Positions 260-36,363 of a stretch of 64,000 nucleotides of DNA are shown piece by piece. Positions within the stretch are counted from its first letter, which is position 1. Each line of letters starts with the position of its first letter. The notes beneath the pieces are model-generated. The model was not told where the DNA came from. It saw only the letters and a program-made list of their open reading frames with translations, and made no database searches. Position numbers and translations under genes: made by a program. Source of the DNA: Geosiphon pyriformis (lineage: Eukaryota > Glomeromycota > Glomeromycetes > Archaeosporales > Geosiphonaceae); assembly GCA_016748015.1 (NCBI GenBank), contig JAAOMT010000483.1, positions 186,001 through 250,000 on the forward strand. The letters are read 5' to 3'.

Positions 260-2149
260 TCATTGGAGTGAAGGCAATAAAGAGGAACCTGAACCAGCAC
301 ACAAGAAATCCAATCTCGCCAAAACAGAACTAACTGAAGCCTCCAGAGCCGACATTTTAGACTCCAAACCACCCACCTTGGTAGTTAGAACCTTCGAACT
401 ACTCGAATTTAAGCCACCACCCATATCAATACTTGGAAAATGGTGATTAGATAATGCCAATTCACCATCCAGAGCCATATCAGAATCCAAACCAGGGGCC
501 AAAGGCACAGATCCAACCAGAAGAGGGGCACCAGAAGATGGAACCATGGGCACCAATTCAACAAAACTCAATTTCCTTAAAATATCAGACACTTGGTCAG
601 CCAACAACTCGAGAGAGCATTCCAAAGATGCCAAGTGAGCATTCAAAGAAGAGTCGACAAGTGTAGAAGAAGGAGAACCACCACCCAAATCTGGGGTCAT
701 ACAGTGAGAGGAATCAGCACCAAGACCAAAACCAGAAGGAGAGCCACCAGAAGGGAAAGCAAGAGAGACTACCTGGGTCCACGATTTGCCACCAAAAGCA
801 GCAGAGTGGGATATAGGAACATTTTTCTTTGCATATAACTTGGCCAATTGGAGACAATCCACACTAGGAGCACACCTTTTATTAAAATTAATTAAGAAAT
901 CAGAAGATGACGTATCTAATGCATCGCACTCTAAAGCCAAATGTCCAAGATGCCCACATTTTCCACACCAAACCAAATCCAGCCTAACTCAAGAAAGATG
1001 AACACCACCAAAAACAGGCTCAGTGAGAAAAGCAAAATTCAAATCATTCTCGGATTCGAAGCCAACTACAGCACAGCGAACCCTATTGCCAGTGTCCAAT
1101 GAATGATTAATAATACAAGTTCTGCCACCAGTTTTATCCAAAAGATTACTAAGGTCATGTGCTGTTGTTCCCACCGGCAACATAAACAGAAGCATCCTAA
1201 AACAATCCCTAAAGGCCCAGATATCGCAATCTCTCACAGCTTTTGTCATATGCACAGAGTCTTTTTCAATTAAGAAGGACCATTTTGAAGCCAATTGCTC
1301 TGTCTGTCCTAATTTGGTGAATTCCACTACAGCCTTCTGCCACATACCAACCAACTGGATTTTGATTGACTTAATTTGCCCAAACTCAGAAACTGTGGCG
1401 ACGATCATTTCTTTTGGCATATTCATGGGAATTTCTTTGATCACCACAGCCCAATCTGAACGAAGCCCTTGTTTCCTCACATTATTGTTTATAACGATCT
1501 CCTCTTTTTTGGCCAATAATACAGCTTTCCTCATGTTCTCCTCAGATGTAAATGTTAATCAGATAATTCCTTCAAATTTTGAGGAGATAGTGGCCCCCCC
1601 AAAACTATTGATCTTTGAAAAAACCTTCCTGATTAAATGAGTTTTCGCCATTGCCGATTTGCCTTCAACAGCTGAAAGATTGATATCCAAGACAAAAAAT
1701 TTCTTAACTGCCACCTCTATAAGAGTTTTGATGATTTTGGGATCGATCCAGATTTTATCCAAAGGAACCTTTTTCATAAGGGGGGGTGGAAGGGGCTTCA
1801 TCTTTTCATCCATCTCAAAGTCAGGAGAACCAATAATAGAACCAAAATTCACACTAGTATTCACACGTTTAGTCTTGGGAGTATTAACAGCTGAACCCAA
1901 AAGAAAATCATCAAAACCACCAGACATACTAACATTCTCATCATCATTAGAAAGGCTTTCTACATCGGAATATACACTAGCACTAGAACCAGACTTCAAA
2001 GAAATATTCTTTTTATCACCAGAGTGTTTAAAATTACCAAGAAAAGTTTTCTTTTTTTGTGAAAAGGAACCACCAGTAGAACTGTGAAACATGCCCTTAG
2101 AAGCCTTCTTACTAAACATGCTGCCACTAGAAGCAGCCTTTGAATCCAT
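260..2149 (-). pseudogene. LINE-1 ORF1, RNA-binding protein with zinc knuckle
   Basis: ORF1 protein of a LINE, expected to coat element RNA. The frame starts at a true ATG (MDSKAASSG) and runs about 630 codons with only two internal stops, both TGA (1559-1561 and 989-991), so it is a nearly intact gene killed by point changes. Order of parts: Ser/Lys-rich N-terminus; a beta-alpha-beta stretch resembling an RRM (VVIKEIPMNMPKEMI, then KSIKIQLVGMWQKAVVEF); one CCHC zinc knuckle at 926-967 (CX2CX4HX4C); a low-complexity Ser/Gly/Leu-rich tail. It aligns with LINE-2 ORF1, where the first TGA site reads Arg, suggesting CGA to TGA. The second is probably TGG to TGA. It ends in an ATGA overlap with the ORF2 region. 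Confidence 0.85.
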
Positions 2150-2269
2150 GACAAAGAGGTTATTAGTTAAAGAAATATTGATATAATACTAATAAGAGAA
2201 AAACAAAAACTTCTTCTTCAGAAAAATAACTCGTTGAGGGTTTTTTGGGAGTAAAAAAAAAAGAATTAA

Positions 2270-2676
2270 ATTTATTTAAATATTAATATTAACAATTATA
2301 ATATTTAAATTGTAAATTAAAAATAACAATTATATATTTTAGCTATTAAATAAAAATAAAAAAATAAAAAATAAAACAAATATAATTATAAACTGGAAAA
2401 ATTAATTTATTAATTTCAAAAACAATATAACCAAAAAAAAATTAACCAACTTAATCTTAAAAAAAAATTTTAAAAAACAATATTTTTTTTATTAATATAA
2501 ATTAATAAATAAAAACAGTATTAATAACAAAAAAATCTTAAAATAAATAATAGCATAAAATTATAAACCAGCAGATTTTAACTTAAATAAACAATTTTAT
2601 TAAAAATATAATATATAAATTAAAATTTTAAAAAAATAAAAATATTTTTTAATAGATTTTAATTTGTTTTAAGAAC

Positions 2677-2716
<40 letters not shown>

Positions 2717-2750
2717 ATTAATATTTAATACATAAAACTTTATAAAAAAA
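2270..2750. other. AT-rich spacer between two head-to-head LINEs
   Basis: Almost pure A/T with many short A and T runs. I see no coding potential or structured RNA. It separates the 5' ends of LINE-1 (minus) and LINE-2 (plus) and contains a TTA microsatellite. Exact LINE 5' ends cannot be fixed from one copy; the right limit is set by similarity between about 2750-2830 and the region just upstream of LINE-3 (about 20990-21080). Confidence 0.6.
2677..2715. repeat. (TTA)13 microsatellite
   Basis: Thirteen uninterrupted TTA units, the longest pure trinucleotide run noticed in the window, in the AT-rich spacer upstream of LINE-2. Confidence 0.95.
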
Positions 2751-2829
2751 AAAAATTTCTTTCTTTTCTTTATTCCAAATTCCCAAAAAAGAGTCAAAAA
2801 AGTTTTTTGAAAGAAGTTTTTTTACTATT

Positions 2830-3300
2830 CAGTACAATAAATTCAAACCGTTTTTGCTTAATTACAAGGCCACTGTTGGTCCTAGTATTGTTGTCATGAA
2901 AAAAACTCTCAAGGATTCTGGTTCTGATGCTGGTATCAAGTTTGTTGTGTCAAAAAAAAAGAAAAAGAAGTGCTTTGAAAGATAGTGTTGGTGACAAGAA
3001 AATTTTTACTAAGATATTGAGTGATCATTTATGATGCTTTGAGATTAGTAACACTACTGAATCTGATAGTGTAAATATGGAAGAGAAGTGTTTAGTTAAG
3101 AAAACCAGCTTTAATTATGATAAAGGTAGTGCTTTTACTAGAGAAAATATGGATCAAACACTTAAAAGTTCAAAGATACTAACCAAAAAAGCATTGAGAA
3201 AACCACTAGAAAAAATTAATTTTTTGAGTAATGATAATAATAATATTTTGTCAGATACTTCTTTAATACTTCCTTCTCTCTTGAAAATTCTGGTTGATGT
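2830..3300 (+). pseudogene. LINE-2 ORF1, N-terminal part
   Basis: First part of the LINE-2 ORF1 protein, continued at 13484. It includes a basic stretch (VVSKKKKKK), the phrase TTESDSVNMEEKCLVKKTS and then SLLKILVDV, where element A interrupts codon order. LINE-1 has matching text (GDKKNISLKSGSS, VESLSNDDENVSMSG). A frameshift near 2975 and a TGA near 3032 break it. The start is uncertain: there is no good ATG at the position of the LINE-1 start, and the first reading begins near YKATVGPSIVVMKK. Confidence 0.7.
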
Positions 3301-4175
3301 TGTTACAGGTGATTATTTCTACTGTCAAATCAAATAACAAATCCGTAACTTGGTGCTCAAAGCTAATTGCAGTTGATATTGATCTGAAGATTTAGTCTCT
3401 GAAAGTTTTGGTTGAGTCCTTTGTATAATGAACAGAGATTCAATAGTGTCGATAGTAGATGTATCCTTCCAAGAGTTTTCCCAATTTCTTTCTCAGCATG
3501 GTGGCCAGATTTAGTCTGGCAGTCATGCCCTTCTGGTAAGCTATCCGATAATATATATAAAACCCTACCCTTATTTCTGGGTCTTTTACCAGGCTATTCT
3601 TGACATCAATAACTTAGCGCTTAATCTTTTAATCAATTAGTATACAACAACAAAATCAAAAAATGAAAGAAAATAAAATAAATAAAAAATAAAAGTAAAG
3701 AAAGTAAAGAAAATAAGCCAAGGCAATTTGGTCCGTTAGTATTTTGTCAATAGCCGTGATCAAGAACTATTGTTCTAGTGTGGTTAAGTATCAATTATTA
3801 TCAACATGAAGTATTGATAGTGGAGAGTAAATTGAAATATGGAATGATTATTTATTTGATGATTAGTTTCTTGGCTAAGGATTCTGTGGTATCAATTCTG
3901 TCTTTTCTGTTTTTAACACTACTGCTATATATACATAATTGAGATTCCTCAATTTTTTGATTCTTTATGACAGGAATCCTGGAATTCCTGAAATCCTGCA
4001 ATTCTTTTGAGAGGAATCCTGGAATTCTGGAATCCTGCAATTCCTCATTGAGAATCCTGAAATTCCTGGAATCCTGCAATTCTTGAGAGGAATCCTGGAA
4101 TTCCACATTTACTATGCTTACTTCTGATTGGCTAATAATTATGCTAATATAATTCCTATATTTTTATGAGTAACA
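3301..4175 (-). repeat. 3' LTR of element A
   Basis: 875 bp, TGTTA at one end and TAACA at the other. It carries a TATA box (CTATATATACATAA, 3925-3938, read on the minus strand as TTATGTATATATAG), an upstream array of CCTGGAATTCC-like units (3968-4106), a 25-bp imperfect palindrome (3748-3772) and a hairpin just left of it. The open frame seen across 3852-4106 is only the translation of the array and is not a gene. Confidence 0.93.
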
Positions 4176-4205
4176 TTATTCCCTCCTTTTAATATTGAGC
4201 TCCGT
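4176..4205 (-). promoter_or_regulatory. Polypurine tract of element A
   Basis: On the minus strand the sequence directly before the 3' LTR reads GAGCTCAATATTAAAAGGAG and then GGAATAA. A purine run abutting the LTR is the expected primer for plus-strand DNA synthesis. The GGAGCTCA-type text is shared with elements B, D2, E and F, partly because it also codes the end of the extra ORF. Confidence 0.8.
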
Positions 4206-5000
4206 TGAAATCTAACTCATGTAATTCCCCCTCTTGAAGTATTTCCTGGATTTTGTTTTCGAGAATTACTTGTGTTATTTGGGTCTGTAATGCTTCAAAT
4301 TGAGCATTGGTGATTTTTCCCAATTAATTACTAGTCACCATATCCATTTCTCTGTTGAGCAATATTTTTGGTTTATCCTAAAATGCTGTGTGTATTCGGT
4401 ATATGGCTCGGGCTTGTGTGGATAAGTTGTTCTTTCCCAAAAATGTTCTAATTGTTGTAGTATTCTTTTGTCGAATAATCGCTTTGTTTTATCCATATAT
4501 AGATTCTGAATGTTTACATGTTGTCCCAAGTAAAAATAACAATAGTTTCGTGGAAATTGTTGTATCCACCAATTCCAAGTTTCTTTAGTCAACTCTTGAT
4601 ATAGTGACTCTTTTGTCAATTCTTTGATTATTGCTAATTTTACTTTCGCAATGATTTTGTCCACTGTATTTTCAGTTTTTTTCTGTGTTCTGAGTTGTAA
4701 TGTCTTTCTAGTATCTTGATATCGAATAGTTTATTGATTGATTGTAATCTCCATTTCCTGGTGTTGGATTAATTGAAAGAGTTGTTATGCTAATGAGTGA
4801 ATATTGTCTGTAATTTCCATTTTTCTGATATTTCCTGTCACATTTACCATGTCTTTATATATTCTTTTGATGAATCAATTTAACATGTTGTTGTCGATAA
4901 TAATGATTGGTTCCAGATCTTGTGGAATCTCATTTGGTTGGACTAGTATTCTCTGTACTCCTAATCATGGAATATTACTGGTAGATAGTAGTGTGATGTT
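4176..5000 (-). pseudogene. Element A post-integrase ORF (unknown function)
   Basis: Coding remains between integrase and 3' LTR, clearest at 4335-4664 (MDKIIAKVKLAIIKELTKES, later NIQNLYMDKTKRLFDKRI). The same region exists in B (49603-50259), D2 (63250-63930) and E (39960-40638), and shared words such as NLYMDxTK and YKxxxxxYxxF show that it is under coding constraint across families. No signal peptide or membrane segment is visible, so it does not look like an envelope gene. It is rich in Lys, Gln, Leu and probably helical. Function unknown. Confidence 0.55.
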
Positions 5001-5004
5001 GTGA

Positions 5005-6110
5005 TATGGCTTCAGTCAATCTCTATGTGCTGCTTTGGTTAAAATTTTGTTATTCAATCTTAATTTGTAAGCTCCATTTTCTAGAATTTCTTCTATGTGA
5101 AATGGTCCGTCCCATTTGGGGTCAAATTTTTCACTTCATTGTTTTTCTGCTTTGGTATGATGTAGTAATACTTTGTCTTCGATCTTGAATTCAACTGGTT
5201 TGTCTGGTAGTTGACTATCATGTCTTTCTTTTAGTGTTTCTTGTGACTTTTGAATATTATCAGCTGCTCTTTTTTGTTTGTTTTCCAATGTTTCTATTAA
5301 GTCATATGTTCTTCTCAGCAATGTTTCTTGAAAATTTTCCTCTGTTATTGGTTCAGCTGGATATGTATTAATTTCTCTCTCTACTGGTAACGTTGCTATT
5401 CTCTCATATACTAATTCAAATGGTGTTGCTTGTGTAGTATCCTGTTTCGTTGTCCGATAAGCAAATAGTACTGATGGTATAAACAAATCCCAATTGTTCT
5501 GGTTTTCTTGGCTGAGCTTGGTTATTGTTTCACACAATGTTCTGTTGAATCTTTCTACCAATCTGTTGGTTTGTGGATGGTATAGTAATGATAATGGTCT
5601 TTTGATTCCGAATCTTTGGCTCAATTCAGTTAATGTTCTGTTCACAAAATGAGTTCCTTGGTCTGACAATAATTCTTTTGGACATTCATGTCGACAAATC
5701 AACTCCTGATAAACGAATTTGGCAACGGATTCTGCATCCGCTCTTTGAATTGCTTTTGCCTCTGGCCATTTAGTGAGATAGTCTATAGCTACTGCTATGT
5801 ATCTGTTTCCTCTACTGGTGATTGTTAATGGTCCAACTAAATCAATTTCCATACGGTCAAATGGTTGTCCTACTTTGATTGGTCTTAATGGTTTACTGGG
5901 TCTTGTTCCTCCTCTTCACTGACAAGCTTCACAATTTTGAACATATTGAATGATGTCTGGATACATTGATGGCCAATAGTATCTTTTTCTAGTTCTTTCC
6001 ATGGTTGCTTCTTTGTGAAAATGTCCTGCTGTTGGATTTGAGTGCATGTTGAATAATATTGTCTCTTTTTTTGGCTCTGTAATTACTTTGGTTAGTTGGT
6101 CCGGATCTTT
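5005..6110 (-). pseudogene. Element A integrase
   Basis: Integrase, which joins element cDNA to host DNA. The N-terminal HHCC zinc finger reads HFHKEAT, then NCEAC (about 6060-5930). The catalytic core is open from 5852 to 5136: Asp of MEIDLVGPL (residue 4), Asp of SDQGTHF (64) and Glu of NRLVERF (100), an exact D-D35-E spacing. After a TGA at 5136-5138 (probably from TGG) the frame continues as FDPKWDGPFHIEEIL, the GPY/F-like C-terminal module of gypsy integrases. One stop also lies between zinc finger and core (CEACQ*RGG). The catalytic residues survive, but the protein is cut into three pieces. Confidence 0.88.
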
Positions 6111-6319
6111 TCTATTTTTCCAATAAAGTATATTTTGGTGAGTGATAAAATATTTTGATTGTTGTTTGATCCTCTTTCATTTTGTATAAGATAAATTCTC
6201 CTTGAACTGTTGAGTATTTAGATAATGTTACAATTGTTAATATTTTTGTATGTTCATCTTTTGTTGTATTTTCCATTGGTATTGTTCTGGTTTTATTATA
6301 TCTTTGGGTTGAAATGTTC

Positions 6320-7750
6320 TTAGATTTGTCTTATTCGCAATAAACCATCAGCATTTCCATTGTCTTTTCCCTTTTTGTAATATATAGTATAATTGTATGG
6401 TGTGAGTGCCATTTTCCATCTTAACTGTCTTCCATCTCCAAATTTTTGTTTTTGGAATGATATCAATCCCTTGTGATCTGTGTATACTTCAAACTTCTGG
6501 CTCAAGTATTCTTTCCATTTCATGATGGCCCAGTATATTGCTAAGTGTTCTTGTTCCGGTGTTCCATAGTTCTTTTTGGCTGGTGTTAAACCTCTGCTGG
6601 CATATGCTACTGAATGTTCTCTGCTGTCTGATCCTCTCTGAAATAATACTGCTCCCAATGCTTGGCTGGATGCATCAGTGGTGATGATGAATGGTTTGCT
6701 GTAATCTGGATAGATCAGTACTGGAACTTGGATGAGCTTTTTCCTTAGAATATCAAAAGCTTCTTGTTGACTTTCTGTCCATTCATATTTCGCATTTTTG
6801 TTTTGTAGTTGATTGAGTGGCTGTGCTATCTTGGAAAAGTTCTTGATAAAATGATGATAGTAGCTGGCAAATCCCAAAAATGATTTCAGTTCTGTTATAT
6901 TGGTTGGTACTGAAAAGTTTTTTACTATCTCTATTTTCTCTGGATCTGTTTTGATGCCGTCTTTGCTGACTATGTGTCTCAAGAATTTGAGTTCCATCTT
7001 GCCAAAAAAGCACTTTGTCGCATTTAACTTCAGTCCTGCTCTTCTTAGTCTTTTGAACACTTGTTGAAGATAATAAAGATGATCATCAAACATCTTTGAG
7101 AATACATTGGTGTCGTCCAAGTATACAACTACTGATTTCCACAATAAGTCCATATAAACAATTTCCATTAGCCATTGGAAAGTCGCTGGGGCATTGGTTA
7201 AGCCGAATGACATTACTTCAAATTCGAAATTCCCTTTTCTAGTAGTAAATGCCGTCTTTTCTTTGTCAGCTGGATTCATGGCTACTTGCCAGTATCCACT
7301 GTCCAAATCTAATATGGAGAACTATTTGTTCCCACCGAAAGCATCAAATAATTCCTGTATTCATGGAGTTGGATAACTGTTTCCACGAGTTACACCATTG
7401 AGTTTCCTGTAGTCTACACAAAACTGGATTTTTCTATTTTTCTTATGGACGAGTACCACTGGTGACGACCATGGACTTATTGATGGTTAAATTAGCCTGT
7501 TGTTAAGCATTCTGTTTATCTCTTGATAAATAATCTCATGGCTGGCTGGTGGCACTCTGTATGCTCTTTGTTTGATTGGCATTGTATCTCCAGTCTTGAT
7601 CTGATGTTGGATGATGTCAGTTCGGCCAAACTCATTTTCGCTGGCAAAGATGTCATTGAAATTGTTAAGTAACATTTTGAGCTGCATACATTGGAGTGGA
7701 TCTAAGTTTCTCATGTTCATTTGTTCCAATTGTTCTGGTTGGAGCAAATA
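6320..7750 (-). pseudogene. Element A reverse transcriptase-RNase H
   Basis: RT and RNase H of the Ty3/gypsy kind. The region from DIIQHQIKTGDTMPIKQRAY (7747-7487) leads into RT; after a TAA at 7487-7489 and two more stops the frame is open from 7306 to 6320. The RT active site is VVYLDDTN (Asp-Asp at 7117-7112), preceded by FGLTNAPATFQ. RNase H follows with Asp of TTDASS (residue 211 of the 328-residue open frame), Glu of EQEHLAIY (253), Asp of YTDHKG (277) and Asp of GNADGLL (320), so all four metal ligands are kept. The usual YxDD tail residue is Thr here (YLDDT), as in C, E and D2. Confidence 0.9.
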
Positions 7751-7804: not shown

Positions 7805-8899
7805 TTATGGAAAGTCTGGAATGGGGTTTGGTGGTTGGTCTTCTATTTCTGTGGTTAAATATCCAATGGTTATTCTTTTTGGTATGCTGATGACATTGCC
7901 AGTATTGTTGTAGATGGGAATTTTTATGCTGCTATAGCTTTTGGCTGGTATGTGGAAATTGATCAACCCAATCTCTCCCGATTCACAAAGAGTTGCTTCC
8001 ACTTCAAACATCTGTTCTTGCTCCTTTTCCTTTCTTTCTATTGCTAACATGTACTGGCTATATGGTGGAATGGAAATAGCTTGACCAGTTGAGATAATTT
8101 TTCCTTGGCCAACAATTTCTTCCTCTGTCATGTTAACTGATACATCTATTCTACCTGTGGATCTGAATCTCTGTATTCCTCTCACTGTGATTCCTAATTC
8201 CTCCCTCTTTCTCACTGATACTAACTGAGCTATTCTAACCAGAGGCAGGAATATTGCCTGTGCTATCTTTTCATTGGGCTCTATTACATAGGCCTTTTCT
8301 GAGTCATTTTGTAGCATAGCAATGATATTTTCTATATATCCTGTGTCAATTATTCCTCCTCTTATATTAATCTCTCTTTTTGCTAAACTACTCCTAGATG
8401 CTAATTGAACCATGATTGTTGCCAGAATTTCTAGTGCTATTTTTAGATTAAGGCAGGTGTGTGAATGTGGTTCCAATTTGATGGCATCTTTTCCTGGATA
8501 TCTCAGATCAAACCCTGCATTAGTATCATGCACACATTCTGGCATAATACCTTTCCCATTGTCACTATACCATTTCAACTCTTGTTCCTTGGAAAGATCT
8601 GGTAGTGCAATGTATTGTTCATAGTTTACCTCGGAGTTTGTATCTGAGTTAGAATCATTGTCATTGTCATTGCCATTTTGAATGGAGTTTGAACCGTTGT
8701 TGTCACCGTCATTGTTGGAGTTTGAATCGTGATCAATCGGCGATTCTGATTCTGATTCTGATGTGCAGCTGCTGATTGGTTTTTCCTCTTCCAGGATCAT
8801 GTAGATCATGCGTGGTGGTGGATTGTAAATGAGATCACACTCATCACAATACTGGAAGTCACAGAGAATTAGGCAGTGTTGACATAGTCGAGCATTCAA
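7805..8899 (-). pseudogene. Element A dUTPase domain with Cys motif and PR-RT linker
   Basis: A 364-residue open stretch of the polyprotein; the first codon is TTG, so it is a segment, not a separate gene. A Cys motif comes first (C6, C9, C13, C18, C21), then a Ser/Asn/Asp linker (45-95), then a trimeric-type dUTPase with its five motifs in order: AGFDL (128-132), ASRSSLA (167-173), GGIIDTGYI (181-189), KIAQAIFLP (211-219) and RGIQRFRSTGR (240-250). dUTPase hydrolyses dUTP to dUMP and limits uracil in cDNA. Motif 5 departs from the usual GFGS core. The last 100 residues end NTGNVISIPKRITIGYL, the linker found before RT in gypsy elements. Confidence in the fold is high; activity is unknown. 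Confidence 0.9.
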
Positions 8900-9438
8900 C
8901 TGCTTTAATCATTGTTCTTGTTCTTCTCTTGTGGGTGCTAATTCTTGGTAGTGTTTGTGGAATTGTTCCGGATCCAGGAGATTTATGATGGGTTCTGTGT
9001 CCCAGTCAAGCTCTAAAGGTTCTGGGGGTTGTCTTTAATCGTTTTTATCTCTTCTGGCATTGCCCCTTTGATTTTTGCAAGTGCCATTTGCCAAATTTTG
9101 TTGTTGTCATGTGGGCAACTGTCCAGTCGTTGTATGGCTCTTCTCCAGGCTGCTTCTATTGGGGTTCCTTTCTTTACCCAGTCACTTATTAGAATCGTGT
9201 ATTGACACAATACGTCACATGTTCTTCCTCATCTAAGAATGTCATGCCACATTCCTTTGTCCAAGAGAGTCTCTCCACAAGCTAAGCATGGCTGATTGTC
9301 CCATTTCCCTACTTGTTTTGGTCTTCCAAAGTGTTCAAGGATGCATGGGCAGCAATAAAACCTAGTTGCCATTGAATATTCTTCATCGTCCCCACAGCAT
9401 GTGCCCATTGATGACAATTTCTTGCCACAATCGACGCA
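8900..9438 (-). pseudogene. Element A Cys-rich module between protease and dUTPase
   Basis: A conserved Cys-rich region of unknown function. It has four Cys pairs: CVDC, a CC pair, FYCCPC and CLACG, followed by a helical stretch (LCQYTILISDWVKKGTPIEA, 9210-9013). Element B has the same pattern with cleaner spacing. It resembles two zinc ribbons. A stop after HDILR (9229) and a 1-base frame change at the C5/G5 run near 9020-9030 break it. D2 reads through the second site in one frame, which shows that this break is decay in A and not a programmed signal. Confidence 0.7.
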
Positions 9439-9719: not shown

Positions 9720-10473
9720 GGTAGGCTTTCCAGGTAGGCTTTTCTTTCTCCTCCTCCAGCTCGATCAATAGTTTCTCTCTTGGAGGAGTTTTGAAGTGGC
9801 CACACATGGCCGGAACATGTATGTGTTGGCCCTGATACGTTAGCTAGAGTTCCTGGATGTTCTAGTCTAACGTTGCATTGACTTTAGATAGCCACTCATT
9901 ACCAACGAGAGCTTGGTATTGAGTGGCTTCTATTACTAGAACTTTAATGGGAGTCACTATGCCATTGACTTCAAAAGGAAAATCATTGATTTCGCCGATG
10001 GGAGTTTTGGTCACTCCATTGGCTGTGATGATTCTGGCGCTGGCAGCTCGATCAACTCAGTGACTTAATTGATCCATGAGTTGTTTAGTGATTATGCTGC
10101 CAGCTGATCCACTATCTAGAATGAGTTTGATGGAGTGACCATCAACTCTGGCATCCATGTACATTGCTGTTATAGGTTTCTCTTCAAGGGCAGCTCTACT
10201 GAATAATGGTATTGGTGCATTTTCTTTGAGTTCAAAAGGGAAGATGGCTGCTAGGGATTTGTTGCTAGAGATGGTTGCCAGTGGAATGGTGTTGATAGGT
10301 ATGTGCTGATTAGATTCTGTGTTGTTGGATGTGGCATTTTCTGGGGTAACTAGGAAACTTAAATAATGTTGAGAATTTGGGTTTTGAACGCGACTGGTAT
10401 CCAAATTCCAGGTGCGTGATCCTAATAGTGGGTTTAGCAAACTGGGAATTGGTTGGTGAACAACTATCGCCAA
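9720..10473 (-). pseudogene. Element A aspartic protease
   Basis: Retropepsin that would cut the polyprotein. The flap-side start MYMDARVDGHSIKLILDSG carries the catalytic Asp at 10114-10116, in LILDSGSAGSIITKQL. After one TGA (just right of 10056) the same frame continues with IITANGVTKTPIGEI and ALVGNEWLSKV, the C-terminal landmarks of gypsy proteases. Upstream lies a Pro/Asn-rich spacer after the gag zinc knuckle. The frame is shared with the Cys-rich module, so protease, Cys module and dUTPase were one reading frame before decay. Confidence 0.85.
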
Positions 10474-10499: not shown

Positions 10500-12542
10500 G
10501 AGGGTTGCCTGATGTTATTTGAGCTGGGTTCTGAGTTGGTGTTTGAATTGGTTGGGGTTGATAGATGATTTGTGGCTGCAGTTAATATATTACTTGTGGC
10601 TGTGGCTGATGAATTGGAGATTGATATATTGACAGTTAATAGATTGGTTGCTGCATCATGGGCAGGTAATTATTTCAATATTGGTTTTGACTCTGATTTG
10701 GATAATGATTCGGAGTTTGGAACTGGCAATTGAGATTTTGATATTGATTTCCTGATCTTTGGTTATTTAGACACTGGCGACAGTCAATTTGGATATGACC
10801 TTGTTTACCACAATAGTGGCAGATACGCATTTCCTGTTGCCACTGTTGATTGGTCGATGAAGATGGACGTGGTTGATTTTGGCCACGATTAGAATTTCCT
10901 TGATTATTGCGTCATTGTGGAGGCTGATAAATGGCGTGATTGTCAGCTAAGTATCCTTCCAATCTCTTATTAATTGATTCACTGAACTTCTCCAATTTAG
11001 AATCCAATTCAGATGATCCGTTTATTACTAAGTTAATGGCTTGGGTGTGGTTAGCCTCTGATTTGGCAGATTCAAAATCTCTGGTGCATGTAACTGCATC
11101 TTGAAAAGTATCTGGATGCAATGGCCATACATGTTGCAAGATGCTGCTGCACAAGCCACGGATAAACTGATTGAGTATCTGTGGTGCTGTGAAATAATTG
11201 GTGTCAATTGCTTGAATTTGGCATAGGTTTTAATGGAAGTGTCCCAGGTAAGTGGTGACTGCTTCAGTTTCTTCTTGTTTTATGATAGTGAATGCATTAA
11301 CTAGGCGATTGATACTGTTATTGTTGCTGAAATATCTTAGAAATTCTGCTTTGAAGGCATTAAAATCTTGTGGTTTATTAACCAAGCTCTAATACCATAA
11401 ATTGGTAGTATCCTTGAGAAAGTAGGGAATGGCTTGCATTACTCGAGCGTCATTCCATCCATTGGCTGCGATGGCTTTTTCTACATTGTTTAGCCATATT
11501 TGAGCATCATTCTCTTTGCCAGTAAAGTTGTCAAGTTTTGCGATTGGTGCGTAGGCCATTGAATCTAAGTTAGGTGGTTGTAGTGGCTGTTGAAGCAGTT
11601 GTTATTGTCCTGGCTGTTGGGGTGGTAGTTGAAGTGGCTGTTGTATGGGTTCGGCTATGGGATTAATTGGCAGTTGATCAAGAACAATTACCGGAAGTAA
11701 GTTTTGCTGATTAATTAATTCGGAGTTTTGATTTCTTTGATTTGGCGGCATTTGAATATTTGGAGTTTCGATTTCTGGATTTTTTAACTGTTGCTGAGTT
11801 TGAATGTTCAGGGTTTCAACTTCCGGATTTTCAGTAATCGGGTGCTGGTAGTGAATTCTTGATTCTCTGATTCTTCTTTCTCTTTTTCTGATTCCGCTGC
11901 TTCCCACAGATCAGAGATTCTGAAATCTGGTGAAGGCAGTGGTAATCAAAGTCCTAATGGGGTTGATGATCACGAATTAAATCCCTCAAAGTATTCACCG
12001 TATGGTCCTAACAATTCTGTTTTTCTTTGTCTATTTTGGAATAGGAATCATCCAAACACTAATGTCGCAGTTGATGGGAACACGTCTGTTGATGATATGT
12101 TAATGGCGCTTCCAGGTGTATAGTGGTAGGATGGGTTGTTTAGGGATTCAACTCTGTTTTTCTTCCAAGTAGGTGGCTGTATTTTTCTGGGTTTTACTGC
12201 TGGTGTTTGTAATTTTCTCTTGCCTTTACTAGCATATGTAATTGGATATTTTTGTTGAGTGTGATGTTCAATTTCTTTGTTGATCTCAGTGATGATGGAT
12301 GCGAAATTATGATTTGTTGGTAGGTTGGTGTTTTGGATTAATTCCTTATAGAAAGTTTCTCTTGCTGATTCAGTATTCACTGGTGTTCCTAATAAAGAGG
12401 AAATCTTTTCATTGACATAGAAATTGAAGACTGATTTGGCGGATATATAATTGTGGTTTAATCCCAAGTATTGACAATAGTGTTGAAATAAGAATTTTGC
12501 GAATCCTAAATGGTTTGCTCCTATAGTTTTTGATTCTGCCAC
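10500..12542 (-). pseudogene. Element A gag
   Basis: Structural protein. The N-terminal part (12542-12048, KVAESKTIGANHLGFAKFLF) has no ATG and no internal Met. After a frame change near 12050 come a Pro/Gln-rich region with two copies of NPExETxNIQ, the capsid-like region starting SMAYAPIAKLDNFTGKENDA (about 11565 downwards) and one CCHC zinc knuckle at 10780-10821 (CHYCGKQGHIQIDC). Three or more stops interrupt it. The capsid phrase matches element B (MATAYIAKIPEFMGKNND) and D2. See the finding on the AUG-less N-terminus. Confidence 0.8.
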
Positions 12543-12590
12543 TTTTGGTTTGGTGTTGTCAGTGCTGGTTCTCTGTAGGATTATACCTCA

Positions 12591-12662
12591 CAAGGAGCAC
12601 CAAATGTTACAGGTGATTATTTCTGCTATCAAATCAAATAACAAATCTGTAACTTGGTGCTC
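12591..12662 (-). promoter_or_regulatory. Primer-binding site and U5-PBS inverted repeat of element A
   Basis: Directly after the 5' LTR the minus strand reads TTTGGTGCTCCTTGTGAGG; TGG followed by TGCTCC two bases after the LTR is a normal PBS position for a tRNA ending GGAGCACCA. The LTR itself contains the complement: arm 12647-12662 (CTGTAAC-TTGGTGCTC on plus) pairs with 12595-12612 (GAGCACCAA-AT-GTTACAG), 9 plus 7 base pairs with a 2-base bulge and a 34-base loop. The PBS would lie within the stem. Confidence 0.75.
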
Positions 12663-13479
12663 AAAGCTAATTGCAGTTGATATTGATCTGAAGATTTAGT
12701 CTCTGAAGATTTTGGTTGAGTTCTTTGTATAATGGACAAAGATTCAATGGTGTCGATAGTAGATGTATTCTTCCAAGAGTTTTCCCAATTTCTTTTTCAG
12801 TGTGGTGGCCGGATTTAGTCTGGCAGTCATGCCCTTCTGGTAAGCTATCCGATAATATATATAAAATCCTACCCTTATTTCTGGGTCTTTTACCAGGCTA
12901 TCCTTGACATTAATAACTCAGCGCTTAATCTTTTAATCAATTAGTATACAACAACAAAATCAAAAAATGAAAGAAAATAAAATAAATAAAAAATAAAAGT
13001 AAAGAAAGTAAAGAAAATAAGCCAAGGCAATTTGGTCTGTTAGTATTTCGTCAATAGCTGTGATCAAGAGCTATTGTTTCAGCGTGGTTAAGTATCAATT
13101 ACTATCAACATGAAGTGTTAATAGTGAAGAGTAAATTGAGATATAGAATGATTATTTATTTGATGATTAGTTTCTTGGTTAAGGATTTTGTGGTATCGAT
13201 TCTGTCTTTTCTGTTTCTAACACTACTGCTATATATACATAATTGAGATTCCTCAATTTCTCAATTCTTTATGACAGAAATCCTGGAATTTTTGGAATCC
13301 TGCGATTTCTTTAAGAGGAATCTTGGAATTCTGGAATCCTGCAATTTCTCGTTGAGAATCCTGAAATTCCTGGAATCCTGCAATTCTTGAGAGGAATCCT
13401 GGAATTCCACATTTACTACGCTTACTTCTGATTGGCTAATAATTATTCTAATATAATTCCTATATTTCTATGAGTAACA
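12605..13479 (-). repeat. 5' LTR of element A, with promoter
   Basis: 875 bp, TGTTAC to GTAACA. In transcription order: degenerate CCTGGAATTCC array (13400-13260), TATA box on minus TTATGTATATATAG (about 13229-13243), then downstream a hairpin (ACTATCAACA/TGTTAATAGT, 13101-13125) and a 25-bp imperfect palindrome (13052-13076), so both should be in the transcribed leader. It ends in the U5-PBS inverted repeat. I place U3/R near 13195, about 30 bases after the TATA box; this is inferred. Confidence 0.92.
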
Positions 13480-13483
13480 ATGT

Positions 13484-17800: not shown

Positions 17801-18607
17801 CAGCACTCTCTTTGAGTTTTAATCAAGTTACTGATTGATCCAATGAATTGTTTTCTGGCTGGTACAACATGTGCTCTCAATTTGTGCAACCTGTCTTTGG
17901 GTGGTAATCTGCCTAATGGTTTTCAGACCAAGAATAATATTGCAGTTCTGAATGTGCTCAGCTCTAAGTCTTATTTGAGTGTAATAAGATCTCTTAAAAA
18001 GTACAGTATTGTGTTTGCAAATCAGCTTTTAGATTATCATAACACATGTTTTATATAGAACACTTTTTATAGATAGAAAAAACTGGATCCTAGAGAGCCA
18101 GTTTCTGTTTGGTTTGTTTCTCTGGTCAAATTTATTAATGAGAGTGGTTTGTTAAATAGTATATTGTTGTTTTTTTGTTCCATTCTTGCTGACTCTCCTT
18201 GTGATTTTGGCTACATTAGTAAATATTTGCTGGATTCTGGTTTGAATTTTATAATTATTTATATGAATGGCTCCATTAAAAACTTGGGTTTATTAGGTGC
18301 TTGTGGTGATACTACTGCCTATTTTCCAGATGTAAACATTAGCATTGGGGTAAAAGTAAATGGATTGCTATCATCAACTCTAGTAGAACTACAGACCATT
18401 GCTCTTGTTTTGGAGTGTGTGCCTGCTTCTCTTTTAGTTAATTTGTTTACAGATAGCCAAGCTTTACTGAATATGTGTACTTTCTTTAGTGGTATATCTC
18501 ATATTGACTTTCATAACAAATGTTGAATTGAAAAAAAGCATATTTGCCAGGTTATTTCCAAAAAAAGTTTGTTGGTTACTTGGAATAAAAGTCAAGAGTT
18601 ACTTTGG
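14865..18607 (+). pseudogene. LINE-2 ORF2: endonuclease, reverse transcriptase, start of RNase H
   Basis: The enzymatic protein of the LINE, readable in pieces. Endonuclease: KQEDVVHWHMKSKNM near 14920, then LDGDFNENRSKK (about 15297) and STWGNLRGTIKVINYIFVSG (about 15408; the usual catalytic Asp before Tyr reads Asn). RT: LSNGKTAGIFGIPNELWKH (about 16405), KAYNSVGW (16827) and the active site GAFVDDTIWV (about 17160-17190). LGIFFSIDGLSK follows. RNase H begins IIIYMNGSIKNLG (Asp to Asn), then LVELQTIALVLEC (Glu kept) and FTDSQALL (Asp kept). Frame changes near 15070, 16300, 16600-17040 and 17550 plus many stops make it non-functional. It is cut at 18607 by a solo LTR. Confidence 0.87.
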
Positions 18608-19578
18608 TGTTATCAGTAGAATTTTAGCTATTAATTAGCATGAAATTACCTTCATAATTCTTATCATTAGTTAGCATATATTATTATTATTTCGATTATC
18701 ACTTATTATTTAATCAAATTATCAAATATCATTACTCAATCAATAATCCAATTTGTACTCTAGAAATTAAGATGATCAAATTACACAATACCCTAAACCT
18801 TTTAACATAGTCAAAATTCGCCGAAATTAATGAAAATTGGCCGAAATAATCAAATAGTTCAGTGAAATAACTTGTAGTTTACCGAAATGTATCTTTAGTT
18901 TACCCAAATTGTAGCAAAGAGAAAAGTGCAAGTTCAAAAACTAGTACTATAACAAGTTATATAAAAGAAGAGCTTCTCTCTTCAAGAAAATGTATCTTCT
19001 CATAGTATTTTATCATAGTACTTTACTTTAGATATTTTAATTGAAACAAATCACTTTTTACACATTCAAATAAAAATTAAATATTCAAAAACCAAATCCT
19101 TAAATTATTACACTTGAAATTCTCTCAACACAACTAATGTTTTGAAATTGATTAGCTACCAATTTCAGTAATCTGTTAGTGACTCCAGGCCTGGATAAAA
19201 AACGTTTTCTTTGACAAAATTCTATTTCTTTTACATTTCTTTTATTTTCTTTTTCTTTTTTTATTATAATCATTAAGGTAGTCTACAGACAAGATTCCTG
19301 TAGAAGAGTTGACTTTCACAACAAAGTAACTACACATTTTAGTGAGCTTTCAGATAAGCAATTTCTGGGAAAGAGTTGATATTTACTACAACATAATTAC
19401 ACAAAGTAACTGGCATAGAATTGGCCATTCCACTTATAAGCCCAGCAGTTCAAATTATAGGAGATAATTTGAAGATAAATTCAGTTACTGGGGGTTCAAC
19501 TACTTCCTGGAAATGTGAATTCACAGCAAATCAACATTAACAACATTAAAGAAAAGAGACCAAAAACCTCTGGTAACA
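18608..19578 (+). repeat. Solo LTR of family B inside LINE-2
   Basis: 971 bp from TGTTATCAG to GGTAACA, flanked by TTGG duplications. It aligns end to end with the LTRs of element B (read from 58573 downwards) and with the solo copy at 24594. A TATA box lies at 18958-18966 (TATATAAAA), preceded by degenerate TTCGCCGAAAT-type boxes and the word ACTAGTACTA. No PBS or internal sequence remains, so it arose by recombination between two LTRs. Confidence 0.9.
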
Positions 19579-22177: not shown

Positions 22178-24593
22178 TTATCTTTTCTTTTTTAATATTG
22201 AGCTTTGTCGAAATTTTTATTTTGGATTAATTTTATTACTTCTCTTTCTAATACTGTTTGTTTAATTCTGGTTCTTATGTTTTCTACTTGTGAGTTATTC
22301 ATTCTTTCCTACTGGTTAATAATTATTGTTTTCATTTCTGAATGTAATAGGTTTTCTGAATAATTTTGAAATATGGTGTATAGTCAATAGATTGTTCTAG
22401 TGTTGAATTTGTTTTTTTTTTGATAAAGTCTTTAATTTGCTGTATTATTTCTTGATTGAATATTTTTTTGGATTTGTCAATATATAATTTCTGGATATTC
22501 AGCTTTTGTCTTAGCTAATAGTAACAGTATGCTATTGGAAGTTGTTTTGTTCATAACTTCTAGTTTTCTTTGGTTAGTTTCTTTGTTAGAATTATTCTTG
22601 GTTGGAATTATTCTTGGTATTTTTCCAAAAGTGTTTTTTACTTTTTTCATGATTTTATCTAACCAATATTTTGTTTAGTTCTGTGGTTGCTAATATGAAA
22701 TTTTTTTTCTCTTTTTGTGTTTTGATAGCAAATTGTTTGGTAGTTGATAACAATTTTCATGTTTAATTGTTGTTAATTTATGGCTTGAAATAGTTGTTAA
22801 GCCATTGTGTAAATATAATCTGGAATTTTCATCTTTTATTGTTGTTGTTGTTGTATCTACTGTATTTTTTTATATAATATTTTGTCAATTAATTTGATAT
22901 GTTTGTCTAGATAATTATGATTGGTTTTAAATTTCGTGAAATTTTATTTGGTTGAACTAGTATTTGTTGTACTTTCAGTTGTGAAATATTACTAGTAAAT
23001 AATAGTAATATATTGTAATATGGTTTTAATCAATCTCTATATGCTGTTTTAGTTAATATTTTGTTGTCTTATCTTAATTTATAAGATCTATTTCCTAGAA
23101 TTTCTTTAATGTGAAATAGTTCATCCTATTTGGAATCAAATTTTCTACTTTATTGTTTTTCCATTTTGGTATAATGTAAAAGTACTTTGTCTTTAATTCT
23201 AAATTTAATTGGTTTAATTGGTAATTAGTTATTATGTCGTTTTTTTTGTTTTTCTTATAATTTTTGAATGTTATTAGCTGTTTTTTATCTTTTGTTTTCC
23301 AAAGTTTCTATTAATTTGTATGTTTTTAGCAATGTTCTTTGAAAGTTGGCTTTTGTTATTGGTTCTATTAAATATGTGTTGATGTTTATTTTAATTAATA
23401 ATATTGCTGTTCTACTATAAACAAGTTCAAATAGTGTTGCTTGTATGATATCTTGCTTTATTGTTTAATAAGCAAATAGTACTAATGGTATAAACAAATT
23501 CCATTTGTTCTGGTTTTTTTGGCTGATCTTGGCTATTACTTTATACAATATTCTATTAAACTTTTTGACTAAGCCATTTGTTTATGGATAATATGATAAT
23601 GATAATAGTTTCTTAATTCCAAATTTTTGACTTAATTCTGTTATTGTTCTATTCACAAAGTGAGTTTTTTAATCTGATAATATTTTTTTAAACATCCATG
23701 TTTACAAATCAAATCTTGATGAATAAATTTGGCTATGGATTCTGCATCTGCTCTTTGAATTGCTTTTACTTCTGACTATTTTGTGAGATAGTTCATAGCT
23801 ATTGCTATATAATGATTGTCTTTGCTAATTATTGTTAATGATCTGACTAAGTCAATTTCAATTTGATCAAATAGTTGTCTCATTTTAATTAGTCTTAGTG
23901 GTTTACTGGGTCTTGTTTTTTTTTCTTTAATAAGCATTACAATTTTGAATATATTAGATAATATCTGGATATATTGATGGCCAATAATATCTTTTTCTGG
24001 TTTTTTTCATGGTTGCTTCTTTATGAAAATGTTCTGTTGTTAAATCTGAATACATATTGAATAGTATTGTTTCTTTTTTTGGTTTTGTAATTACTTTAAG
24101 TGGCTAATTTGGGTATTTTCTGTTCTTCTGGTATAATATATCTTGGTGTGTGATAAAATATTTTGCTTGTTGTTTTATGTTGTTTTGTTTCTTTTGAGAT
24201 AATTTCTTCTTAAACTGTTAAGTATTAATATAATATTGGAGTTGTTGATATTTTTGTGTGTTTATCTTTTATTATATTTTTGGGTTAAAATGTTCTTAGA
24301 TTTGTTTTATTTGTAACAAACTGTTAGCATTTCCGTTTTCTTTTCTCTTTTTGTAATGTACTATATAATTAAATAGTAATAGTTTTATTTTCTATCTTGT
24401 ATGGCAATTGTCTTTAAATTTTTGCTTTTGGATTGATGTTAATTCTTTGTAATCAGTATACACATCAAACTTTTGACTTAAATATTTCTTTCATTTTATA
24501 ACAGTCTAATAAATAGCCAAATATTCTAATGCTAAAGTTCTATAGTTTTTTTTAGTAGAACTTAAGCTTTGGCTGGCATATACTATTAAGTGT
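22178..24593 (-). pseudogene. Element C extra ORF, integrase and part of RNase H
   Basis: No long open frame, yet the text follows element A step by step. Integrase core words can be read on minus at 23860-23500 (compare IAVAIDYLTKW and SDQGTHF of A), the HHCC region lies near 24060-23920, and the RNase H end near 24590-24300. Stops occur every few codons. The match is by eye against A at the DNA level (for example the stretch beginning at 23041 against 5026) and is convincing in order and spacing. Confidence 0.7.
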
Positions 24594-25606
24594 TGTTACT
24601 AGTAGAATTTTAGCTATTAATTAGCATGAAATTACCCTTATAATTCTTATAATTCATTAGTATATTAATGTCATTTCAAATTATCATTTATTATTTAATC
24701 AATTATCACATATCACGATTCAATTAAAATAATCTAATTAGTATAACAGAAAGTAAGATGATCAAATTACACAATATCCTGAACTTTGTAACATTCAGAA
24801 ATTCGCCGAAATTTACAGAAATTCGCCGAAATTTATAAGAAATTCGCCGAAATTTACAGAAATTCACCGAAATTATGAATAGTTCACCCAAATTAATTAA
24901 TAGTTCAGCAAAATAACTTGTAGTTCATCAAAATGTATCTTTAGTTTGCCGGAATTTGGGCAAAGAGAAAAAGTGCAAGTTCATAAACTAGTACTACAAC
25001 AAGTTGTATAAAAGAAGAGCTTTTCTCTTCTGGAAAATATATCTTACTTTAGATTTATCTCTTAAAACCGTTTATATACACACAAAAAGAAATAAAAATC
25101 AAATAATTCGAAAAACCAAATTCTTTAATTATTGTACTTAGAAAAACCCCCAAAAACCCAACTAACATTTCGAAATTGATTAGCTACCAATTTCAGTAAA
25201 CTGTTAGTGATTCCAGGCTTGGATAGAAAACGTTTCTCTTGACAAAATTCTATTTCTTTTACATTTCTTTTATTTTCCTTTTCTTTTCTTATTACAATCA
25301 TTAGGGTAGCCTACAGACAAGATTTCTGTAGAAGAGTTGACTTTCACAGCAAAGTAACTATACATTTTAGTGAGCTTCCAGATGAGCAATTCCTGGGAAA
25401 GAGTTGATGTTTACTACAACGTAACTACATAAAGTAACTGGCAAGGAATTGGCCATTCCACTTATAAGCCCAGCAGTTCAAATTATAGGAGATAATTTGA
25501 AGATAAATTCAGTTATTGGAGGTTTAACTACTTCTAGAAAACATGAATTCACAACAAACAGACATTAACAACATTTAAGAAAAGAGACCAAAAATCTCTG
25601 GTAACA
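24594..25606 (+). repeat. Solo LTR of family B inside element C
   Basis: 1013 bp from TGTTACTAG to GGTAACA with perfect GTGT duplications (24590-24593, 25607-25610). The best example of the repeated box in family B: four close copies of AATTCRCCGAAATT within 24801-24875 and further degenerate copies to about 24975, just upstream of a TATA-like TTGTATAAAAGAAG (25003-25016). Confidence 0.92.
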
Positions 25607-26752: not shown

Positions 26753-27639
26753 TCATTTGTATATTGTTTGTAATATAATATTCACATATCTGCAAAGTTG
26801 TAGAAAATCTGGAATGGTGTTTGATGATTGATCCTTAATCTTGGTGCTTAAATATTTGATGATGGTTTCACTTGGTATTTTGATAGTGTTTTCAGTTATA
26901 TTGTAGATAAAAATTTTGATGTATTTATTGTTTTTGGCTAATATGTAGAGATTAATAATTCCAATTCTTCCTGATTCATAAATTGTAGTCTTTGTTTCAA
27001 AAATCTGAGGTTGATCTTTTATTTTTCTCTCTATAATTAATATGTATTGGTTATATAACAAAATAAAAACTAAGTGACTGGTAAAAATAATTTCTCTCTT
27101 GTTAATGATTTCTTCCTCTGCCATATTAACTGGTACTTTTATTCTATCTGTAAATTCGAATTCATTTTTTTTTCTGGCTGTAATTCTTAATTTTTTTCTT
27201 GTTTCTGCTAATATTAACTAAGCTATTTTAACTAGAGATAAGAATATTGTTTGTGTTATTTTTTTATTTAGTTTAATAACATATTTTTTTTCTGAATTAT
27301 TTTGTAGTATTGCAATAATATTTTCTATATATTTTGCATCAATTATTCCTTCTCTAATGTTGATTTCCTTTTTCATTAAACTAAATCTAGATGCTAATTG
27401 AACTATTGTTATTATTGGAATTTTTATTGCTATTTTTAGATCTATATAAGTACACATATTGGATTTCAAGATAATGACATTTTTTTCTGAATATTTTAGA
27501 TTAAATTCTGTATTAATATTATGTGTGCATTTTGGCATAATATTTTTATTATTATTGCTGAATTATTTTAGTTTCTGCTTTATTAAAAGATCTAGAAGTG
27601 TAATATATTGTTTAGAATTGTAACCAGAGTTTAAATAAT
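26753..27639 (-). pseudogene. Element C dUTPase and linker
   Basis: dUTPase remains: 27538-27218 reads CTHNINTEFNLKYSEKN (motif 1, AGFDL reduced to TEFNL), VQLASRFSLMKKEINIR (motif 2), EGIIDAKYIENI (motif 3) and KKITQTIFLSL (motif 4). The region 27124-26753 is the linker (ENTIKIPSETIIKYLSTKI). Motif 5 falls in the broken stretch between. At 27639 the coding text ends in the Asn-rich linker. Confidence 0.82.
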
Positions 27640-32430: not shown

Positions 32431-34080
32431 TCAATTTACCAAATACCATATTAAAAAGATCAACTATACTAACTTCTAAAACTAATCTGTGTTGATTGTA
32501 AAAAGAAATTATCTTTAATAGATGTCTGTATTGGAGATGACAAAGTTTGGCCAACTGCCATAAAATATTATTGTTAACTGTGTGTATTAGAAAAATTCAG
32601 ATGATCAAAATAGCAGAGCAAATAGAACAATATCTTCTGTTTTATATGTAGTGAAATTCTATCTAATAAAGATCTATGGAATAACATTCCTAAAAAAGGA
32701 GGAATCTGTGATAAGTCTTGTCAGTACACCATTTTGATTAATAACTGGATGCAAAAAAAACTTTGTTCACTGCAACATATCAACAGACAATAAACTGACT
32801 GGAGAATTATTCTTATAATAAAGAAAAAATTTGGAAAATAGCCCTAGCAAAATGTGAAGAAGCCATTATTGAAGAAATACATACCATTAAAAATGCTTTT
32901 ATAATCATCAAAAAAATAGATGACCTATTCACAAATAACTTGGAAGTATTCTAAGACTGATACCAAGAATTGGCTCTTATCTGGGAGGAACAAAAGCAAA
33001 GCCTAACTGACTTCAATACAAAGCTGTGCAATCATTGTTTAATTTCTTGCCATTTTTAACACTGTAACAAATGTGATTTTTTATTCAATCTACCTCTAAG
33101 AACATTATATTCTATCACAGAATTATCAAAACCTAAAGACAACTATAAATTAGTCACCAAGAACATGTTATTTTAAGAGCTGAATAAGGCTGTCAAAATG
33201 GAACAGTACTTTGTCTATCTTGACCTCTTTAAAAAATTGGAATTAAAATAATATAATAACAACCATGAAGAAATATGTCTTGAAAAAACACACAAAACTA
33301 ATGCTAGTTTTGACTTAAAATACCTTGAACAATTACCTATAGTTATAGCTTTATATTTTTTTGTAACAATAGATCTAAAAATAGTCTTGAAAATTTTTAT
33401 CAGTATGATGGTACAAATCACATCTTGATTTAGTCTGGCTAAGAAAAAAATTAATATGAAAAAAGGAATTATTAATGCTAGATATATCCAGAAACATTAT
33501 TAGAATATTACAAAACAATTCAGACCAACCCTACAAAATTGAGTTACAAGAAAAAATTGCTTAAGCTATCTTTTTGCCTTTTATAAAAATACCCAAATTA
33601 ACTTCAGTTACTACATATAAAGAATTAAATCTCATTGTTAAAAGAATTAATGGATTCAGATCAAGTAGAAAAGGAAACATATTCATCAATTTTATTGAAG
33701 AAAGCAGTGACCAAATAGAACTTATATACACAGACACAATTATTTTTATCTCTCCATATTGACAATATATTCTTAAAATAGAAAGAAAGATCTAAGATCA
33801 AGTCATATTATTTAAAGCCAATCCAGAAATTTGCTCTTTAGCTGATATAATCAATTTGTATATACTAATCAAAGCTTATAAACATTTAAAAATTTCTATC
33901 TATAATTACACTAAAGATACTATTGAAATCCCAAAATAAATTCTTATTGGTTTCATATCCTCAAACATTCAAAATCCAAAAAAACCTCAACCTATTTCAG
34001 ATTTTATGCAATTATTCTTATTTTGTAATATTACTTTACAAGTATAGAACCTGCTAAAAAAAAGTTACTTATTTACATTA
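32430..34080 (+). pseudogene. Element E Cys-rich module, dUTPase and linker
   Basis: Cys module remains near 32470-32760 (ICVDCKKKLSLI-like text), a helical part, then CNHCLISCHF and HCNKC near 33030-33080 (second Cys motif, spacing as in A). dUTPase: TNASFDLKYLEQ (motif 1, about 33300), VQITS and FSLAKKKINMKKGIINARYI (motifs 2-3), VKRINGFRSSRKG (motif 5, about 33640; open frame from 33574). The linker ends DTIEIPK with ILIGFISSNI. Stops and one frame change are present between motifs 3 and 4. Confidence 0.75.
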
Positions 34081-35425: not shown

Positions 35426-36363
35426 TGTTACAGGTGAATATTTGGGATCTTAAATTAAATAACAAATCTGTAACTTGGTGTTCTATTGGTATATTGGTGA
35501 TATCAGTGATCTAAAGGTTTTATCAATCTGAAGGTTTTGGGTGGAATTCTTTGTATAATGAACAGAGCTTTGATGATTGTTCTATCAGTAATCTCTTGGA
35601 ATCACAATTTCTTTAAATTTTTTTCTTAGCATGATAACTGGTAATCTGACAGAGATGCTCTTTTGGTAAGCTATCCTTAAATTTTTAAATTCTTAATCCT
35701 ATACCCTTCTTTTGGGGTCTTTTACCAGACTATCCTTGATGTTAATAATTCAATGCTTAATCCTTAATTAATTAGTATACAACAATAAAATCAAAGAAAT
35801 AAAAAAAATAAAAAAATAAAAAAATAAGCCAAGGCAATTTGCAAATTAGTATCCCATCAATAGTTGTGATTAAGAGCTATTGTTTTAGTGTTATTAAGTA
35901 TCAATTGCTATCAACATGAAATGTTGATAGTGGAAAATGAATTTGAGATAGTGAATAATTATTTTATTGATTTGGAAGGTTGCTTAGATTAAATCTAAAC
36001 TGAGAGGTCTAAACTAAAAGAAGGGTTTTTTTTTTGTATTTTTAATAATTATGATTTGTAAGTCTAATTGATTTTGTTAGTCTAATTGACTCTGTAAATC
36101 AATTAACTCGAAGTCTTCTTGACTAATTTTCTAACTTCTAATACTACTGCTATATATATATAATTGAGACTCCTCAATTTCTCAATTTTTTACACCAGAA
36201 ATTTTGGAATTTCTGGAATCCTGCAATTCCTTTGAAAAAAATCCTGGAATTCTGAAATCCTGTAATTCCTTATATGAGAATTCTGAAATTCCACATTTAT
36301 TACATCTACTTCTGATTGGCTAATTTTATATGCTAATATACTTTTTATATTTTATAAGTAACA
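35426..36363 (-). repeat. 3' LTR of element F
   Basis: 938 bp, TGTTACAGG to AAGTAACA. It has a perfect hairpin at 35908-35930 (CTATCAACAT, GAA loop, ATGTTGATAG), the palindrome near 35860-35890, a TATA run (about 36149-36160) and a shortened CCTGGAATTCC array (36195-36290). The adjacent plus-strand TTATTCCCTTC is the polypurine tract on minus. Confidence 0.9.

Follow-up and report, generated by a model that had tools for sequence, protein, structure and literature searches.

An abundant branch of Ty3/gypsy-type retroelements of Geosiphon pyriformis with a dUTPase placed between protease and reverse transcriptase

The DNA analysed here, a 64-kb stretch of the Geosiphon pyriformis genome referred to as the window (GC content 29.4%), contains several retroelement copies, among them element A on the minus strand (Table 1). 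The interval to which the original prediction had assigned a dUTPase, 7805-8899, was given without a strand; frame 1 of its plus strand is riddled with stops, and the interval is part of a minus-strand frame running from 8908 to 7805. Read along that strand, the order in element A is protease (PR), a Cys-rich piece, dUTPase, linker, reverse transcriptase (RT)/RNase H and integrase (IN), interrupted by stops and frame breaks. The LTRs share 93.9% identity with each other by BLAST, and an ATGT target duplication flanks the element (13480-13483 by the 5' LTR and 3297-3300 by the 3' LTR, read from the sequence). Judged by the LTRs with their short target duplication and by the order of PR, RT, RNase H and IN, A and its kin are of Ty3/gypsy type; the RT tree described below took dUTPase-bearing elements only.

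Table 1. Features of element A and dUTPase domains of the other copies in the window
Feature	Position	Strand	Basis
5' LTR (A)	12605-13479	minus	BLAST
Candidate primer-binding site, begins TGG (A)	12586-12602	minus	by eye
Frame upstream of gag, recurrent in the window, without Pfam match (A)	12051-12587	minus	
Aspartic protease (PR) region, contains stops (A)	9802-10224	minus	tblastn and reading of the translation
Cys-rich piece between PR and dUTPase (A)	9232-9372	minus	tblastn to other copies
Stop-free frame: Cys/Ser-rich N-terminal part, dUTPase, linker (A)	7805-8908	minus	translation
dUTPase domain (A)	8147-8545	minus	Pfam, tblastn, model with dUTPase fold
Linker after dUTPase (A)	7808-8137	minus	tblastn; without Pfam match
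RT, matched from profile position 70 on, with RNase H (A)	6323-7321	minus	PF00078, PF17917, PF17919
Integrase core (A)	5139-5915	minus	PF00665
Candidate polypurine tract (A)	4175-4190	minus	by eye
3' LTR (A)	3301-4174	minus	BLAST
dUTPase, copy B	27140-27538	minus	tblastn, profile
dUTPase, copy C, broken frame	33282-33672	plus	tblastn, profile
dUTPase scrap, profile positions 4-58	36415-36579	minus	iE 9.2e-11
dUTPase, copy D2	53739-54134	minus	tblastn, profile
dUTPase, copy E, broken frame	59602-59999	plus	tblastn, profile

By eye, the gag of A has a CCHC stretch, and a GPF stretch lies directly downstream of the integrase core. No chromodomain was found by Pfam in the integrase frame of A, the stretch beyond IN having been read by eye only. 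The protease assignment is matched in L007, a Geosiphon copy with a single natural open frame of 1132 aa containing PR, dUTPase and RT by Pfam, in which the part equivalent to the PR of A matches PF13975 and its kin. For the tree analysis, the RT match used for A spans 6650-7672. A zinc module fused to the dUTPase, as in the betaretroviral NC-dUTPase, was considered and found to be weak: among 124 proteins with enough upstream sequence, a few of them from outside Geosiphon, a strict five-Cys pattern is present in 43 and LCxxC in 85. Elsewhere in the window, a minus-strand frame at 992-1558 has a partial RRM match (PF00076).

The predicted dUTPase was borne out by a Pfam scan, in which the translation of the whole 8908-7805 frame matches PF00692 (dUTPase) at 59.2 bits (E 4.8e-16; residues 122-242 of the frame; cut-off 22); a DCD match in the same frame falls under its cut-off. 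A profile built from the Geosiphon copies places the domain at 8150-8578. The nearest solved protein by sequence is E. coli dUTPase (E 2.8e-8), one of 53 distinct sequences found at E <= 0.001, and the best 50 PDB rows returned by a structure search with the AlphaFold model of the frame are dUTPases, every one. The model as a whole has a mean confidence of 58.1 and is poor outside the dUTPase domain, with block means of 74-97 over residues 131-240 and 63 in the preceding block. The five motifs that had been noted in order are recognisable in copy A, but three motif glycines are lost, an E replacing the usual G in motif 3 and an R replacing G twice in motif 5. By profile, motifs and modelled fold, the domain is a dUTPase of the trimer type (PF00692), for which catalysis is a prediction. 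The linker that follows is also poorly modelled (mean pLDDT 54), and the idea that it is a second, degenerate dUTPase was unsupported (hhalign probability 0.7% against dUTPase).

Five copies of the domain (in A, B, C, D2 and E) and one scrap (in F) were confirmed in the window, as the original prediction had stated. Their reported position between protease and RT was likewise recovered by tblastn, with RT downstream of the dUTPase in all five copies and PR upstream in four (A, C, D2 and E); for copy B, no upstream PR was found by tblastn. Element D (minus strand, 48615-58573; LTRs at 48615-49622 and 57566-58573 with 94.1% identity; CTGC target duplication) is nested within element E, which lies on the plus strand and spans 44176-62970. 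The PR of E (48086-48493) lies on one side of D, and its Cys-rich piece (58792-58920) and dUTPase lie on the other; strand, spacing and the target duplication of D suggest that the PR and the Cys-rich piece belong together. Copy C carries, at 35426-38318 between its RT and its IN, two repeats of 86% identity about 1 kb apart; the pair resembles a short non-autonomous LTR element, the start of which is like that of the A LTR. The RT of copy B is broken by a repeat at 24591-25606 that occurs again at 18605-19578 and resembles a solo LTR, and a 1.1-kb direct duplication of 76.7% identity at 43714-46409 carries two copies of the pre-gag frame of A.

To estimate abundance, the Geosiphon pyriformis assembly was searched; the version analysed comprises 124.7 Mb in 406 contigs and may be filtered, and the assembly in print is given as 129 Mb in 795 scaffolds, the largest of 2733.91 kb, with 29.25% GC (PMC9453076). 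A genome profile search gave 3181 first-look candidates for PF00692, and all of the 150 best places scored were above the cut-off. Density was sampled at set positions of four contigs, chosen because best matches lay there; the 20 stretches, each 10 kb long, yielded five dUTPase matches, three of them long (one cut by the stretch end) and two short. On contigs chosen in this way, this amounts to roughly 25 dUTPase domains per Mb, which scales to approximately 3,000 genome-wide (Poisson range ~1,000-7,300). A protein search with the A frame returned 659 matches at E <= 0.001, of which the best 120 were 119 from Geosiphon pyriformis and the window's own. Of all matches in two region searches, 41 of 44 rows and 34 of 42 rows were from Geosiphon, the others being environmental (3, and 8 including the query). 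Geosiphon was the only organism named among these 44 and 42 matches, which held no other Glomeromycotina, in searches that require shared 5-residue words and like length and that distant relatives can escape. The suggestion that the lineage belongs to the Glomeromycotina at large is therefore unsupported by these searches.

The environmental sequences P0150, P0151 and P0167 also have the order PR, dUTPase, RT by Pfam; the remaining environmental rows were judged by their listed domains. They are distinguished from the Geosiphon elements by the distance between dUTPase and RT, which is 94-101 residues in these three against 233 in L007 (Pfam). The environmental elements thus have no linker of the Geosiphon kind, and the linker looks like a feature of the Geosiphon side. 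A further protein, P0180 (988 aa), combines a Ty1/copia-type RT (RVT_2) with a dUTPase (118.9 bits), which in this case comes after the RT.

Trees were constructed to compare the descent of the dUTPase with that of the RT. The dUTPase tree contained 42 rows, including 30 from Geosiphon and 7 environmental ones but only three cellular rows, and the RT tree contained 25 rows, all from dUTPase-bearing elements. In the dUTPase tree, the 30 Geosiphon rows group together as a single clade (99/94) and the 7 environmental rows (P0150, P0151 and P0165-P0169) form another (96/95), the two joining at 100/99, and the host's cellular dUTPase sits with that of yeast (100/97). The RT tree also has a Geosiphon clade (98/96) and an environmental clade (100/98), the latter being sister to the Geosiphon elements on both domains. 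Paired subclades match across the trees: D2 with L004 and L009, the L007 group, and A with B, C and E. E. coli and P0162 are weakly placed in the dUTPase tree, and P0162, copies C, L020 and L021 have long branches; the dUTPase row of copy C was joined from two frame pieces, and its RT placement was not starred (91/90). P0162, an element of 1937 aa, falls outside the element clade of the dUTPase tree, where deep support is weak.

The agreement of the two trees fits a single old acquisition that has been kept with pol, and the earlier proposal of an old, vertically kept acquisition looks right on this ground and on that of a constraint like that of the RT (see below). Several separate captures of dUTPase from the host would be the alternative; independent acquisition has been suggested for other fungal gypsy elements (PMC2864245), and the domain is short and its deep branches weak. 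Separate captures are nevertheless hardly probable, since Geosiphon forms one clade that joins the environmental rows, the host gene groups with yeast (among three cellular rows only) and the RT gives the same grouping as the dUTPase.

Conservation was surveyed in 156 Geosiphon frames, including those of the window and of L007, in which the commonest residue per column has a mean frequency of 0.81. The Y of motif 3 is present in 156/156 frames, the Q of motif 4 in 155/156 and the D of motif 1 in 143/156, and the D of motif 3 is kept in 124 (N in 31). Motif 5 is often lost, with G141 kept in 91/156 and T145 in 104/156. In 13 near copies, transitions outnumber transversions by 4.9 to 1, and they affect 31-37% of CpG positions versus 7-14% elsewhere; the observed/expected CpG ratio of the window is 0.18, a strong depletion. 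The excess of CpG change among copies fits deamination of CpG in resting copies, the methylation of which would be presumed. Copy decay looks like such deamination after insertion, rather than the trace of uracil in cDNA. No altered genetic code need be assumed for the in-frame stops, since decay, with its CpG depletion and excess of CpG transitions, accounts for them.

The copies in the window are decayed, and any selection acted on their active ancestors. Constraint was measured from transversions only, at non-degenerate versus four-fold sites, in copies taken from the window and the sampled stretches. The resulting ratio for the dUTPase is 0.26 (codon bootstrap 0.17-0.46; n=5 copies), compared with 0.26 for RT (n=5), 0.31 for IN (n=8), 0.15 for PR (n=7) and 0.39 for the linker (n=5); with copies picked by score, the range is 0.15-0.34 for the dUTPase and 0.26-0.90 for the linker. 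Since pairs have ancestry in common and resemblance to A was the means of finding the copies, these intervals are too narrow and the ratios may be too low. The amino-acid constraint on the dUTPase, as estimated from these alignments, resembles that on the RT. This bears on whether the domain is a hitch-hiker or a purely structural part of pol that is not needed as an enzyme. The loss of motif residues from many frames, the presence of a cellular dUTPase in the host and the adjoining linker, likewise carried but under weaker constraint, would all agree with such a passenger. It is made unlikely by the RT-like constraint, by motif losses that are mostly of the C to T decay type, and by the near-invariant motif-3 Y and motif-4 Q, although Y codons are poor targets for C to T decay.

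The host's own dUTPase is encoded by a spliced cellular gene, L044, which rules out a host lacking the enzyme and supplied by the element. A motif-3 codon pattern has two matches in the genome, this gene and an element copy (L045). L044 was not revealed by a yeast dUTPase query, the best 150 of 2922 candidates of which lie at 31-37% identity and include known element places. With the NCBIfam profile for uracil-DNA glycosylase (UNG), three adjacent pieces were found at C271:277695-278345, each under the whole-gene cut-off and two with an internal stop; these exon-like pieces led to rejection of the idea of a host without UNG in which uracil is harmless. That idea had been prompted by a GQDPYH codon pattern, which had no match in the genome, and by the sole Pfam UDG match, which reads, in our judgement, like a glycosylase of another type. 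At L046 (G000 C277:301700-303300), two exon-like frames read like dCTP deaminase of the bacterial type, and one of them scores 59 bits against TIGR02274, short of the cut-off. None of the best 150 of 2692 candidates scored with TIGR02274 was above the cut-off, and the top place (C354), taken as a possible dCTP deaminase, proved to be an element dUTPase (L048). Homologues of Dcd1 are reported for Diversispora, Gigaspora, Paraglomus and Rhizophagus (PMC10733785).

It is likely that in active Geosiphon gypsy elements the dUTPase, lying in pol between PR and RT, keeps cDNA low in uracil. The enzyme would be made within the polyprotein and either freed by the element's protease or left beside the RT. 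Its trimers would then convert dUTP to dUMP at the site of cDNA synthesis, and cDNA low in uracil could escape the host uracil-DNA glycosylase before integration. This role is favoured by the PF00692 match, the dUTPase fold, the open frame of L007, the concordant trees and the constraint, and also by the UNG-like exon pieces of the host; several retroviruses that are dUTPase-negative are harmed by uracil in their DNA (PMC4531489). Against it stand the many copies without motif residues, the three glycines missing from A and the host's possession of a dUTPase. The enzyme might instead serve another end: it could supply dUMP towards dTTP synthesis or act as a regulator, as is reported of some dUTPases, and further roles of cellular dUTPases have been mentioned (PMC4531489). 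As the sequence offers no pointer to any such end, this is very improbable. A wider conflict between host and element over the dUTP pool is a quite unlikely extension, drawn from the presence of host genes. In it, the dCTP deaminase-like frames would be a source of dUTP and, together with the UNG-like pieces, would make uracil in cDNA a standing barrier; the dUTPase-bearing gypsy clade could then have passed this barrier and expanded to thousands of copies with its enzyme under constraint.

The arrangement itself had been described before. PosPlaTy3-5 of the basidiomycete Postia shares with the Geosiphon elements a Ty3/gypsy pol with the dUTPase between PR and RT, one of three places at which Postia elements carry the domain (PMC2864245). 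As far as can be compared by description, the elements of Postia and those cited there from Phanerochaete and Tuber differ in their dikaryotic hosts and in the varying place of the dUTPase; they are described as carrying a chromodomain (PMC2864245), which was not seen in the integrase frame of A. Fungal chromoviruses with dUTPase have also been reported (PMC2774666). The bdelloid rotifer elements Juno, Vesta and TelKA likewise have the dUTPase between PR and RT but differ, again by description, in their animal host and extra ORF3 genes (PMC5408684). Giant gypsy-like elements of a planarian have a dUTPase-like domain at the same place but are set apart by giant ORFs, many further domains and an animal host (PMC6431247). 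A dUTPase is also present in the metavirus that served as a proxy for the ancestor of the PNMA genes (PMC11011659), and PF00692 is enriched, and counted as retroviral, in Entomophthora muscae (PMC11105155). The dUTPases of betaretroviruses and non-primate lentiviruses are also five-motif, trimer-type domains within a retroelement polyprotein. Their positions are described as NC-dUTPase-PR and RNase H-dUTPase-IN, respectively (PMC4531489), so the resemblance to betaretroviruses seen by the original prediction is mistaken: the betaretroviral dUTPase precedes PR, whereas that of Geosiphon follows it. Nor can the system be called little described, as had been supposed, given the same order in Postia, rotifers and a planarian; publication of this order for a fungal gypsy element is what the prediction itself had named as counting against it. 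In the literature searched on dUTPase in Rhizophagus and arbuscular mycorrhizal fungi and on gypsy elements in Geosiphon, none of the titles listed concerned a dUTPase-bearing gypsy lineage of Geosiphon.

The Geosiphon elements are therefore a large, old and abundant branch of a known kind of gypsy element with the order PR-dUTPase-RT. They add an early-diverging fungal host and a high copy number to the dUTPase-bearing gypsy elements already known. Caution is needed in reading gene counts for this fungus, many Geosiphon proteins with PF00692 being pieces of retroelements and not cellular dUTPases. The many related copies provide material for asking whether a retroelement keeps a dUTPase for the sake of clean cDNA.
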